NCBI GenBank assembly: GCA_016215445.1
Contig: JACRJL010000003.1
Span: 1 to 64,000 of the forward strand
Source of the DNA: Candidatus Roizmanbacteria bacterium
GTDB taxonomy: Bacteria; Patescibacteriota; Microgenomatia; UBA1406; GWC2-37-13
Reading direction: 5' to 3'
Length of the DNA stretch: 64,000 bases
This document shows, piece after piece, positions 9,050 to 17,074 of the stretch; position 1 is the first letter of the stretch; each line of letters opens with the position of its first letter. A program made the translations under genes and the position numbers. Below the pieces are notes generated by a model. It was not told the DNA's origin. It saw only the letters and a program-made list of their open reading frames with translations, and did not search any database.

Positions 9050-10333
9050 TTAACTACCTTTGCTTAGTGACTCAAGAAATTCCTTGTTATTTTTCGTCTT
9101 TGACAGTTTTTCGATCAAGGCAGTCAACCTTTCCTCGCCGTTTAATAGACCAAGCATTCTCCTCAAAGTCCCTACCTTATTCAATATTTCCTTATCATAA
9201 AGGAGTTCTTCGTGGCGAGTACCTGATTTTTCAACGTCGATAGCTGGATAGATCCTTTTGTCGGCAAGAGTCCGATCAAGGTGAATTTCCATGTTGCCTG
9301 TGCCTTTGAGTTCTTCATAAATCAGATCGTCCATTCGGCTCTCGGTTCCGACCAAAGCCGTGCCAATAATAGTTAAACTTCCGCCTTCCTCACAGTTGCG
9401 GGCTGCCCCCAAAAACTTCTTGGCTGGATACAAGGCAGACGGGTCAAAACCGCCTGATAGACTTCTTCCTGTGCCTGTAACTGACAGATTAAGAGCCCGG
9501 GCGAGCCTTGTGACTGAATCCAATAATATGATGACATTTTGACCCATTTCCACTAGTCTTTTTGCCCGATCCAGTGCCAGATTGGCAACTTTTATCTGTT
9601 GTCGAGGCGATTCGTCAAAATTAGAAGCGGCTACTTCACCTTTAATGAATCTTTTTATCTCAGTAACCTCCTCTGGCCTTTCCCCGATTAATATCGCCAT
9701 CAAATAAGCATCTTTGTAGTTGGTGGCAATGCCTTGCGCGATTTCTTTTAAGAAAGTCGTCTTACCGGCTTTGGGCTGGGAAACGATCAAAGCTCTCTGG
9801 CCAAAACCAACCGGTGATACCAAGTCAGTAATCCTCGTTGAAAGAACGTCTTTGTCTGTTTCCAGTTTAATCTGTTTATTGGGATGAAGCGAGGTCAATT
9901 CATCAAAATTTTTTCTTTTGGCACTCTGTTCTTCTGTCAATTCGACTCCATTAATTTTTTTTATTAAAAGTAGAGAGTGAAACCTTTCTCCTTCTTTTGG
10001 AGGTCGGGCTAAACCCTCAACTTCGTCGCCGCGCCTTAGCCAAAAACGCCTAATCTGAGAAGTCGATACATAGATGTCGGCATCTGGAGACAAGACGTAG
10101 TTCTTCCGCAAAAATCCATAACCACCAAAGGTTATATCTAATACGCCTTTAGCTTCATAGCTAATTTTCAGATCTTCCCTTAATCTTTCTTCTAAAGGCA
10201 CTTCCCGATTGAGTCTTACCGGTGGAGGAGTTTTTTCGATTGGTTTTTCCTCTTTAGGCACGATCGGCTTCTCCTCAATCTTAGAAATCAGAGCGGAAAC
10301 ATCAAGCGGCTTGTCATCAGTTTTTTTAACCAT
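9050..10333 (-). CDS. rho: Transcription termination factor Rho
   Basis: 427 residues. An acidic Pro-rich N-terminus replaces the usual N-terminal helix bundle; the RNA-binding cold-shock-like domain covers about 58-128 (GVLDITFGGYGFLR, DIYVSTSQIRRF). The ATPase core has Walker A QPKAGKTTFLK at about 186-196, Walker B VIILLDSVTRLAR, and the Q/R-loop regions SLTIIGTALV and LDRTLADKRIYPAID. It is an RNA-dependent helicase that ends transcription. A strongly promoted structured RNA candidate occupies the 300 bases upstream on the same strand and may act as its leader; Rho is autoregulated in other bacteria. Confidence 0.96.
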   Translation of the reverse strand: MVKKTDDKPLDVSALISKIEEKPIVPKEEKPIEKTPPPVRLNREVPLEERLREDLKISYEAKGVLDITFGGYGFLRKNYVLSPDADIYVSTSQIRRFWLRRGDEVEGLARPPKEGERFHSLLLIKKINGVELTEEQSAKRKNFDELTSLHPNKQIKLETDKDVLSTRITDLVSPVGFGQRALIVSQPKAGKTTFLKEIAQGIATNYKDAYLMAILIGERPEEVTEIKRFIKGEVAASNFDESPRQQIKVANLALDRAKRLVEMGQNVIILLDSVTRLARALNLSVTGTGRSLSGGFDPSALYPAKKFLGAARNCEEGGSLTIIGTALVGTESRMDDLIYEELKGTGNMEIHLDRTLADKRIYPAIDVEKSGTRHEELLYDKEILNKVGTLRRMLGLLNGEERLTALIEKLSKTKNNKEFLESLSKGS

Positions 10334-10404
10334 AAAAATAAAAAATTATTAATTCAAAAAAACAAATCTATTGATTCTTGAAAGTAATTTCCATGAAGTA
10401 ATAG

Positions 10405-10604
10405 AGGATCCCCCTTGGATGAGGTTAGATTGACTTTTTCCCTGGAAAGAAATGGGATGACGTCTCTCGACAACGCTAGGCGGTGGCAAGAAAACCGTCT
10501 GATAGTCACGCTCAAGCGTGAGTTACCCTTTTTTTTAAATTGCGTAGAGAAAAAGTTACACCGAATAAAACTTCGGGCCTTTCCTTTCCTCATTAGGAGG
10601 ATCT
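10405..10604 (-). ncRNA. Structured RNA candidate of unknown family (possible rho leader)
   Basis: The 303-base gap before rho holds no convincing gene but a compact RNA-like fold. It opens at 10603 with GATCCTCC and ATGAGG, and closes at 10407-10424 with CCTCAT and GGGGGATC, giving a two-part terminal stem across about 195 bases. Inside are a CCGAA/TTCGG hairpin, a long-range stem AACTTTTTCTC with GGGAAAAAGTC, a perfect TCACGC-TTGA-GCGTGA hairpin and a CGG/CCG arm. A consensus promoter ends seven bases before the first stem, so transcription should start at the base of the fold. I could not match it to SRP, 6S, tmRNA, RNase P or a riboswitch. It could be a free RNA or a regulatory leader. 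Confidence 0.55.
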
Positions 10605-10611
10605 AAAACTT

Positions 10612-10640
10612 AGTATATAGAGCGAAATTACTTTTGTCAA
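10612..10640 (-). promoter_or_regulatory. Consensus sigma70 promoter for the structured RNA/rho
   Basis: TTGACA at 10635-10640, a 17-base spacer and TATACT at 10612-10617. The expected start site is near 10604, where the terminal stem of the RNA candidate begins. The -35 lies at the end of the upstream gene. Confidence 0.8.
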
Positions 10641-14933: not shown

Positions 14934-15713
14934 TTAGACTTTAAATAGGCTTCCCACTAAATATCCTACTGCCGCCGAAGCCATGCCGATGACGGCGATT
15001 TCAACTCCTTGCCTAACCAATTGACGGCCAAGCGTCTTTTTTGCCTTGTAATAACCAACAACAAAAAGCACCAAAGTTGAAACTATAATAGATAAAATAA
15101 TTGACTGTCTAACCGGCAAAAAGAAAAAAGCCGTTAAAGGAATAATTGAACCGATAAAAGACGACAGACCGACAATAAAAGCTGAAGGTAAAGCCTGTTT
15201 TCTGTTTGTCGGTTCAAGCTTTAATTCCTGTTCCATCATTACTTTCAACCAGATTTCATCATTGGAAGTTATCCTGTTGACGATTTCATTTAATATTTTT
15301 CCTTCAAATCCGTAGTTTTCATACAAGGCTTTGATTTCTTCTCTTTCCCCTTCCGGAACGTGTTTGATTTCCCATTTTTCCCGCTCATATTCTGACTGGT
15401 AGTAGTCTGCTTCGGCAAGACGAGAAGTATAAGCAACTGCTGCCATGGAAATCGATTCGGCAAAAGTGGCTGCCAATCCGGCCACGATAATAACTTTTGA
15501 GTCTGAAGTAGCAGCCGCAACACCAAGGATAACACCTAAAACATTGACCAATCCATCCTGTCCTCCTAAGATAATTTCCGGAAGATTAAAGTTACGCAGA
15601 TGCGCTTCGTGGTGATGAATAGAGTGATGAATGGCGTCAACTGTATGGGTTTTTTTTATTAATGACACGTCTCTTTTCAAGAATCCTTCCCTGGCTTTAT
15701 CAACTCTACTCAT
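14934..15713 (-). CDS. VIT1/CCC1-family membrane transporter (ferritin-like/rubrerythrin insert type)
   Basis: 259 residues with two pairs of membrane helices. The first contains GGQDGLVNVLGVILGVAAAT and FAESISMAAVAYTSR, hallmark motifs of the VIT/CCC1 family of vacuolar iron or manganese transporters. A cytosolic Glu-rich segment (ESEYEREKWEIKHVPEGEREEIKALY-like, about 105-165) separates them, probably metal-binding. His-rich IHHSIHHHEAH precedes the first helix. It probably exports Fe2+ or Mn2+. The start overlaps the tgt stop as ATGA, making it the third cistron of a queA-tgt-vit run. Confidence 0.85.
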   Translation of the reverse strand: MSRVDKAREGFLKRDVSLIKKTHTVDAIHHSIHHHEAHLRNFNLPEIILGGQDGLVNVLGVILGVAAATSDSKVIIVAGLAATFAESISMAAVAYTSRLAEADYYQSEYEREKWEIKHVPEGEREEIKALYENYGFEGKILNEIVNRITSNDEIWLKVMMEQELKLEPTNRKQALPSAFIVGLSSFIGSIIPLTAFFFLPVRQSIILSIIVSTLVLFVVGYYKAKKTLGRQLVRQGVEIAVIGMASAAVGYLVGSLFKV

Positions 15714-17074
15714 ATTAAATCCTGACTGATCAACGCTCTAATTTTCTCAAATAATTTTTCCATTGTCCAAAGATTGTGGTAAGTAGCCAGTGTATACCCA
15801 AGAATTTCTCTTTGTTTAAATAAGTGATGAAGATAGGACTTGGTAAAATTTTCACAGACATAACAATTACAGTTAATGTCTAGTTTTTCTAAGTTATTTT
15901 TATAAATAGTTTTAAAAATATCAATATCAGAGTCCGAGGTACCCGTTTTGAACGACCTTGGGAGGTGCGCAGTGGAGCGAGCACGCCCACGAGGAGTGAA
16001 AAACGCGGTGCCGAGAACAAATGAAGTTTGATAAATCCTTCCCATTCTCGCCAATCTCGTCGGTTCAACACAATCAAAAGTATCAATTCCATGTTTTACC
16101 AAGTCAATAATGTCATCAACCTGTCCGACCCCAAGTAAATGTACTGGGCGATCCTTGGGCAGATAATCAGCTACCCATTTCACCTGCTCCCGCATTTCTT
16201 TTTTTGATTCTCCTACTGAAACTCCACCAATAGCTATGCCAGGAGTATTTTGTGAAACAACAAACTCGGCTGATTTTTTCCGTAAATCCTCATAAGTTGC
16301 CCCTTGAATAACACCATAGAGATATTGATTAACTTTTGAAGGCGAGGACAACAAATTTTTTGCACTTTTGGGGTAGTGACCCCGCTGTGATAAAAAATTT
16401 CGTTGTCGAGCCCTAAACGAAACACATCGTTTCAACCATTCATGCGTTCTCTCCATTGCCTTTTGGGCATATTCATGCGTCGCCGGATAATAAGTACACT
16501 CATCAAATGCCATATTAATATCAGCGCCAATCTTAGCCTGGTATTCCATAGACTTTTCCGGAGTAAATTCGATCAATTTTCCATCAAATGTAGACCTGAA
16601 TTTAACTCCGTCTTCACTTATTTTTACTACCATCGGCTGTTCCTCTCCTCTAATATCGGCTTTTTTCGCTTGGTCTTTTAAGGGCGAGGACAACAAATTT
16701 TTTTCACTTTTGGGGTAGGGGCCCCACTGTGATAAAAAATTTCGTTCTCGAGCCCGATTATTTTTAGCCAGTGAAAAAACTTGAAACCCTCCGGAATCGC
16801 TCATCAAAGGAATATCCAATCCTGAATATTTATGAATCCCACCGGCTTTTTCAATAATTTCCGCTCCCGGATGAGTTACTAAATGATAAGTATTAACAAA
16901 GGCAACTTGAGTCCCGATATCTTTTAACAATTCCGGAGTCAACGCCTTGACTGTTCCTTTTGTCCCGACTGCCACGAATGCCGGTGTCTTAACTACACCA
17001 TGGCTTGTTTTTATTTCTCCTAAGCGAGCTTTTGATTTTTTGGATTTATGCGTGACTTTAAAAAAACTATTCAT
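15710..17074 (-). CDS. tgt: Queuine tRNA-ribosyltransferase with three in-frame palindromic inserts
   Basis: 454 residues, about 75 longer than usual. It exchanges the wobble guanine of GUN tRNAs for a 7-deazaguanine. Catalytic D93 (MSDSGGFQ), the nucleophile in IDTFDCVEPTRLARMGR (D334) and the zinc site CNCYVC with a downstream His are all kept. The excess is three inserts at about 107-132 (RARERNFLSQWGPYPKSEKN), 221-246 (RARQRNFLSQRGHYPKSAKN) and 355-380 (FTPRGRARSTAHLPRSFK), each encoded by a palindromic element. All fall between conserved blocks, so activity is probably retained. It overlaps queA and the VIT gene by four bases each. Confidence 0.93.
   Translation of the reverse strand: MNSFFKVTHKSKKSKARLGEIKTSHGVVKTPAFVAVGTKGTVKALTPELLKDIGTQVAFVNTYHLVTHPGAEIIEKAGGIHKYSGLDIPLMSDSGGFQVFSLAKNNRARERNFLSQWGPYPKSEKNLLSSPLKDQAKKADIRGEEQPMVVKISEDGVKFRSTFDGKLIEFTPEKSMEYQAKIGADINMAFDECTYYPATHEYAQKAMERTHEWLKRCVSFRARQRNFLSQRGHYPKSAKNLLSSPSKVNQYLYGVIQGATYEDLRKKSAEFVVSQNTPGIAIGGVSVGESKKEMREQVKWVADYLPKDRPVHLLGVGQVDDIIDLVKHGIDTFDCVEPTRLARMGRIYQTSFVLGTAFFTPRGRARSTAHLPRSFKTGTSDSDIDIFKTIYKNNLEKLDINCNCYVCENFTKSYLHHLFKQREILGYTLATYHNLWTMEKLFEKIRALISQDLI
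15929..16018 (-). repeat. Palindromic element, family B, inside tgt
   Basis: Arms GAGGTACCCGTTTT and AAAACGCGGTGCC enclose the B core GGGAGGTGCGCAGTGGAGCG continuing into AGCACGCCCAC. The variable bases GGTACC/GGTGCC pair with one wobble. It encodes TPRGRARSTAHLPRSFK in tgt. Boundaries are approximate. Confidence 0.75.
16341..16413 (-). repeat. Palindromic element, family A, inside tgt (second)
   Basis: Variable arm bases GACAAC and GTTGTC are perfectly complementary. The A core is GGGGTAGTGACCCCGCTGTG. It encodes ARQRNFLSQRGHYPKSAKNL and adds about 24 codons. Confidence 0.9.
16682..16755 (-). repeat. Palindromic element, family A, inside tgt (first)
   Basis: Same arms and core as the neighbouring copy (GGGGTAGGGGCCCC core); variable bases GACAAC/GTTCTC with one mismatch. 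It encodes ARERNFLSQWGPYPKSEKNL. Confidence 0.9.

Follow-up and report, generated by a model that had tools for sequence, protein, structure and literature searches.

A probable divergent 6S-type RNA encoded upstream of rho in Candidatus Roizmanbacteria, with homologues in other families of the Microgenomates

The region upstream of rho in a Candidatus Roizmanbacteria genome (GenBank assembly GCA_016215445.1) raises the question of what is transcribed there, and whether it belongs to rho. The window, that is, the whole stretch of DNA analysed, comprises the first 64,000 nucleotides of contig JACRJL010000003.1. A first-pass annotation of its letters had described a near-consensus promoter firing into a structured RNA of about 195 bases, with a long-range closing stem, a perfect TCACGC/GCGTGA arm and no fitting gene, and had proposed either a leader controlling Rho or an abundant non-coding RNA (ncRNA) of unknown family.

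The rho-adjacent feature could be confirmed, and it is encoded on the minus strand, the annotation having named no strand; its parts are given in Table 1. The promoter is indeed close to consensus, the predicted start is the eighth base past the −10 element, and the span between the ends of the closing stem P1 agrees well with the length first proposed. The minus-strand fold has a predicted free energy of −63.6 kcal/mol (z = −3.35), which was equalled by one of 200 shuffled sequences. As the plus strand folds equally well, the strand of the RNA was set by the promoter and by comparison with homologues, not by energy; a plus-strand RNA was rejected because the promoter and the homologues are both on the minus strand. 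A promoter with at least 10 of 12 matches is found directly upstream of 73/81 homologues, compared with 6/81 control windows. Two ORFs, of 63 and 79 codons, overlap the RNA, but a protein gene is unlikely here since the homologues keep the RNA structure, and the statement that no gene fits can be upheld. A search of the window with Rfam 15 returned chance matches and no meaningful one, even far below threshold. Judged from its sequence, the locus is an ncRNA gene driven by a very strong promoter of its own.

Table 1. Positions of the RNA, its structural parts and its neighbour in the window
Feature	Positions	Strand	Remarks
Promoter	10612..10640	-	TTGACA (10640-10635), 17-nt spacer, TATACT (10617-10612); 11/12 consensus positions
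Probable 6S-type RNA	10407..10604	-	Predicted start A10604; 198 nt from P1 to P1; 3' end provisional
P1 closing stem, 5' strand GATCCTCC	10596..10603	-	Pairs with 10414-10407 GGGGGATC
P1 closing stem, 3' strand GGGGGATC	10407..10414	-	Fold of the window RNA
P2, 5' strand CTTTTTCTCT	10546..10555	-	With the next AC (10545-10544), putative template of product RNA
P2, 3' strand AGGGAAAAAG	10434..10443	-	Covariation alignments
Central bubble, 5' side ACGCAATTTAAAAAAAA	10529..10545	-	Unpaired in consensus; begins with almost invariant AC
P3 GGG	10526..10528	-	Pairs with CCC 10456-10454; clamp at base of apical arm
H1, TCACGC/GCGTGA hairpin	10506..10521	-	Extra helix of apical arm; arms 10521-10516 / 10511-10506
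H2, irregular apical hairpin (AGACG...CGTC, CTTG/CGAG)	10458..10500	-	Both-sided changes in 11/11 modelled pairs
Central bubble, 3' side	10444..10453	-	Equivalent segment is a small hairpin in family f9, as in 6S RNA
rho	9050..10333	-	Downstream neighbour, about 70 nt past the RNA

A DNA search found the RNA in most genomes of the window's genus, and a covariance model (R1) detected one copy per genome in 50 of the 72 genomes of its family. Two rounds of refinement of this model (R2 and R3) reached other families of the order and class. Over 82 sequences, 92.5% of the helix cells are paired, against 68.1% in shuffles, and 25 of the 28 pairs have changed on both sides. The covariation score was 0.661 versus 0.205, none of 500 shuffles reaching 0.661, and when the partner columns were slid by 1–3 positions pairing fell to 50–60%. 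On this comparative evidence, the covariation across 82 genomes proves an RNA structure. A chance hairpin-rich spacer, to which the good folds on both strands could point, is refuted by three alignments, in each of which covariation greatly exceeds both controls, and can for practical purposes be dismissed. Among the checks suggested by the annotation, the Rfam covariance search gave no match of its own for the window RNA, and the comparison of relatives gave stems that co-vary.

The long-range closing stem corresponds to P1 together with an extension, ATGAGG (10593–10588) paired to CCTCAT (10424–10419). P1 lies outside the model, and its sequence differs between families with the pairing kept. 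When its 3' arms were swapped between species, the own partners gave −26.9 kcal/mol and the permuted ones a mean of −17.9 kcal/mol, with 0/2000 permutations as good as the own partner. P2 is paired in 97.6% of cells (50 distinct sequences), and its sequence is nearly invariant. In the GGG/CCC clamp, the inner pair is GC in 81/82 sequences and the outer pair in 79/82. The apical arm above it is branched: the TCACGC/GCGTGA arm noted earlier is the hairpin H1, with both-sided changes in 5/5 modelled pairs, and covariation supports H1 as well as H2, which gives a three-way junction. Between P1 and P2, the 5' side also carries a small hairpin rich in GC (10579–10558, minus strand), which is present in the window and, with another sequence, in some relatives only, and marks a variable insertion site of the RNA.

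The RNA is single-copy and spread over families of the Microgenomates, a class of the candidate phyla radiation (CPR) that includes Roizmanbacteria and Gottesmanbacteria. In the order of family f9 it is present in 18 of 18 good genomes, again as a single copy, which is expected of a housekeeping RNA. Among the nine candidates scored per genome, a phylum-wide search with R2 and R3 gave matches inside the class only; the class-wide scan likewise scored nine candidates per genome. A DNA-pattern scan of 84,980 species yielded 30 convincing matches at E < 1e-5, in records labelled CPR or Microgenomates and in one record named only 'bacterium'. Pattern matches in other phyla failed the covariance model and were rejected. 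The confirmed public matches are labelled Roizmanbacteria, Gottesmanbacteria, Levyibacteriota, other Microgenomates, Patescibacteria and, in one case, 'bacterium'. On these labels, the window belongs to a Roizmanbacteria-like member of the Microgenomates.

In Escherichia coli, rho is preceded by an autoregulated untranslated leader, which the window RNA resembles in being an untranslated transcript upstream of rho. A cis-acting leader that senses the level of Rho or a ligand, and controls read-through into rho or its translation, would agree with the arrangement in the window's family, where each match with enough contig lies immediately before rho and in the same orientation. The RNA is also upstream of rho in families f2, f3 and f25, and its upstream neighbour varies. 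In addition, the spacer that separates RNA and rho in the window yielded no terminator and no good second promoter, so that read-through from the RNA into rho is likely there, and in genomes of the window's family without detectable rho the RNA was likewise not found. In families f9, f18, f31 and f15, however, the RNA is not beside rho, which lies elsewhere in the genome without such an RNA nearby. In each of the eight members of f25, the spacer between the RNA and rho contains a promoter for rho (TTGACA-17-TTAAAT or TTTAAT), and in two members of f18 the RNA ends in different, equivalent intrinsic terminators (arms AAACCATCC..GGATGGTTTTTTT in L101 and AAACCACTCCGCC..GGGGTGGTTTTTTTT in L104). 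The spacer to rho is also poorly conserved. A place in the 5' untranslated region of rho is therefore not universal for the RNA, and its occurrence away from rho in other families sets it apart from the E. coli leader, for which no conserved stand-alone form is known. The leader reading is accordingly very improbable; the RNA is a gene of its own and not simply a rho leader. Of the two proposals in the annotation, the ncRNA gene stands, and a 6S identity can be inferred for it; a general rho leader does not.

Sequestration of a Shine–Dalgarno sequence by P1, which the GGAGG in the 3' strand of relatives might suggest, was rejected: P1 of other families lacks GGAGG, and there is no start codon at a fixed distance. 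Directly after the RNA and ahead of rho, the window has a mini-ORF, ATGGAAATTACTTTCAAGAATCAATAG (10394–10368, minus strand). The CTTCATG start between RNA and rho is kept in most members of the genus and the short reading frames vary; as a part of the RNA family this mini-ORF, with its ATG at 10394 after P1, was rejected, being confined to the window's genus.

Away from rho, the RNA has another recurrent neighbourhood. In f9 and f18 it precedes tRNA-Thr(UGU), mostly with a gene for an M50 (site-2-type) protease upstream, assigned from the HExxH motif seen in translations. In f31 (L106) the RNA is immediately followed by a tRNA-Thr(CGU), and L119 of f15 has one short gene between the RNA and tRNA-Thr(UGU). 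The order fmt – M50 protease – 6S-type RNA – tRNA-Thr(UGU) – tRNA-Tyr recurs in several families of the Microgenomates (L113 and L303, with relatives L101, L104, L107 and L108). In the window's family, fmt is often still near the RNA and the downstream side is taken by rho.

This second locus provides a link to 6S RNA, a widespread RNA that holds back RNA polymerase. The Rfam 6S model (RF00013; gathering score 46.4) gave no match to the window RNA at any threshold used, nothing in 30 relatives, and none above the cut-off in 187 genomes of the class. A single sub-threshold match was obtained among the latter, in G184 of family f5 (42.2 bits, E = 1.9e-6). This 6S-like RNA precedes tRNA-Thr(UGU), and the C-terminal part of an M50 protease is found about 4 kb further upstream; this is the neighbourhood that the window RNA's homologues have in f9 and f18. 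The locus was used as a prediction for the M50/tRNA-Thr interval of two more single-contig genomes, G098 (f19) and G123 (f5). G098 has the order fmt – M50 – 270-nt gap – tRNA-Thr(UGU) – tRNA-Tyr, and the gap contains an RF00013 match of 42.5 bits (E = 1.4e-7). In G123, M50 and tRNA-Thr(UGU) are about 1.5 kb apart and enclose a match of 23.4 bits (E = 0.0034; 191 nt). All three matches are below the gathering score.

Model R3, which was trained solely on the family of the window RNA, found the same bases on the same strand as RF00013 in unfiltered 100 kb scans of both genomes (G123, rank 1, 23.6 bits; G098, rank 2, 19.0 bits). Since the background of R3 reaches about 19 bits per 100 kb, this model by itself would not find the sister RNAs, and the argument for 6S RNA lies instead in an independent Rfam model that agrees with it in place, strand and clamp. 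The RNAs of G123 and G184 are homologous over their full length, with an alignment score of 110 where shuffles gave 20.2 ± 3.2. Pairwise alignment gave no signal between the window RNA and its sister 6S-like RNAs; the link is made by the covariance models and by the locus they share. Indirectly, these bridging RNAs indicate a common origin with known 6S RNA, R3 and RF00013 coinciding on their bases in G098 and G123, and G184 offering the locus and the Rfam match; we infer that orthology is the cause of the shared locus. No separate 6S RNA was found in genomes carrying the RNA. The window RNA is, with good probability, a divergent, non-canonical 6S RNA (SsrS) orthologue of its lineage.

6S RNA is defined as an RNA of 160–200 nt with a closing stem, a large 5' central bulge and an apical arm (PMC8414754), and the window RNA agrees with this definition in length, closing stem, bulge and arm. 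Further likenesses are the strong promoter of its own, internal loops in the closing stem, the single copy, the large internal loop beside P2, the GGG/CCC clamp below the apical arm, which is also present in the Rfam 6S alignments of relatives, and the RF00013-like RNAs of sister genomes at the equivalent locus. Unlike the canonical 6S rod, its apical arm has the extra helix H1 and a three-way junction; its P2 and bubble sequence is specific to its class, RF00013 does not match it, and in the window's order the gene lies upstream of rho. As the RF00013 threshold is not reached and the arm is not unbranched, the RNA was filed as a 6S-type variant and not as canonical 6S. H1 is absent from the G123 sister RNA in both model alignments, which suggests that it was inserted into the apical arm of a rod-like 6S RNA; this detail is tentative because the free fold of the G123 RNA has another small hairpin at that point.

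The branched apical arm and the want of a direct Rfam match could also indicate an independent ncRNA of a new family, housekeeping or regulatory, that occupies the 6S locus of other families or has replaced 6S RNA. The strong conservation of the P2 and bubble sequence inside the family, and the weak similarity of the model to the sister 6S-like RNAs, would be in line with this. However, the Rfam-called 6S RNAs at the equivalent locus resemble the window RNA in their P2 motif (UUUUUCxUCAC ... GGGGAAAAA) and share its GGG/CCC clamp, and both predicted loci were positive with both models; a new family is on these grounds improbable. For a 6S RNA that evades homology searches there is a precedent in Ms1 RNA of Actinobacteria, a 6S-related, polymerase-binding RNA which was likewise missed by such searches and found by synteny (PMC9130861). 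Ms1 differs from the window RNA in its length (about 300 nt), in binding core polymerase and in its other added hairpins.

6S RNA binds the polymerase holoenzyme as a mimic of an open promoter, and is released when its 5' bubble and P2 strand are copied into product RNA; the freed 3' strand of P2 then refolds, forming either a hairpin on the 3' side of the bubble or a collapse helix (PMC8876501). By analogy, the window RNA, as a putative descendant of 6S RNA, would work like it. It is predicted to mimic an open promoter and in this way to bind the housekeeping RNA polymerase holoenzyme, with P1/P2 as the downstream duplex, the internal loop as the melted bubble and the arm based on GGG/CCC as the upstream duplex, and the bound RNA would hold the polymerase back. 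Release could occur when the polymerase copies the nearly invariant 5' strand of P2 into a short product RNA with the predicted sequence 5'-GUAGAGAAAAAG. This strand and the following AC are nearly invariant although their pairs could co-vary, which would fit a role as template.

Counterparts of both refolded forms are seen in some families of this RNA. In f9, a 3'-bubble hairpin like that of 6S RNA (PMC8414754, PMC8876501) overlaps the 3' strand of P2 (CCGATT/AATCGG), with a compensatory variant, CCAATT/AATTGG, in L150. In f2 and f25, and partly in f18 and f31, the 3' strand of P2 can instead pair with the distal part of the 5' bubble, similar to the collapse helix of Bacillus subtilis 6S-1 RNA; own pairings gave −10.9 kcal/mol in f25 and −10.0 kcal/mol in f2, compared with −5.9 and −4.2 kcal/mol, respectively, when swapped. 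A collapse helix was not supported in the window's family (own −2.90, swapped −3.23 kcal/mol), and in the window's genus neither this helix nor the 3'-bubble hairpin is clearly seen.

In the window's order, read-through from the RNA may add to the expression of rho. Unfiltered scans recovered the RNA in six of seven rho-bearing genomes of the window's family in which it had been missed earlier; in the seventh, the contig ends. Some of the assemblies compared are incomplete. In three further genomes of this family that are at least 90% complete (G019, G044 and G045), the searches detected no rho (E up to 1e-20) and no copy of the RNA, and the two seem to have been lost together. This joint absence counts against a stand-alone function, which does not predict it. 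It would follow if, in the window's order, the 6S-type RNA were transcriptionally fused to rho, with one strong promoter and Rho made by read-through. Such a fusion is a doubtful though conceivable arrangement; if true, two global brakes on transcription, a polymerase-sequestering RNA and Rho, would be set together.

An altered 6S RNA, a global regulator missed by database searches, is thus probably present in these genomes. A search of open-access papers returned none in which 6S RNA and the candidate phyla radiation are mentioned together. If the RNA is 6S, RNA-based sequestration of polymerase has been kept even in very reduced, presumably host-dependent bacteria with genomes of about 1 Mb. 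The loci described here, M50 protease/tRNA-Thr or rho, offer a rule for annotating 6S-type RNA in the class. As a 6S-type variant, the RNA would show how far the 6S fold can change, and it raises the possibility of a link between 6S RNA and Rho.

Elsewhere in the window, a gene for a predicted Tgt-like protein (15710–17074, minus strand) contains two similar in-frame inserts, RARERNFLSQWGPYPKSEKNLLSS and RARQRNFLSQRGHYPKSAKNLLSS, which resemble a mobile repeat inserted twice in one gene.
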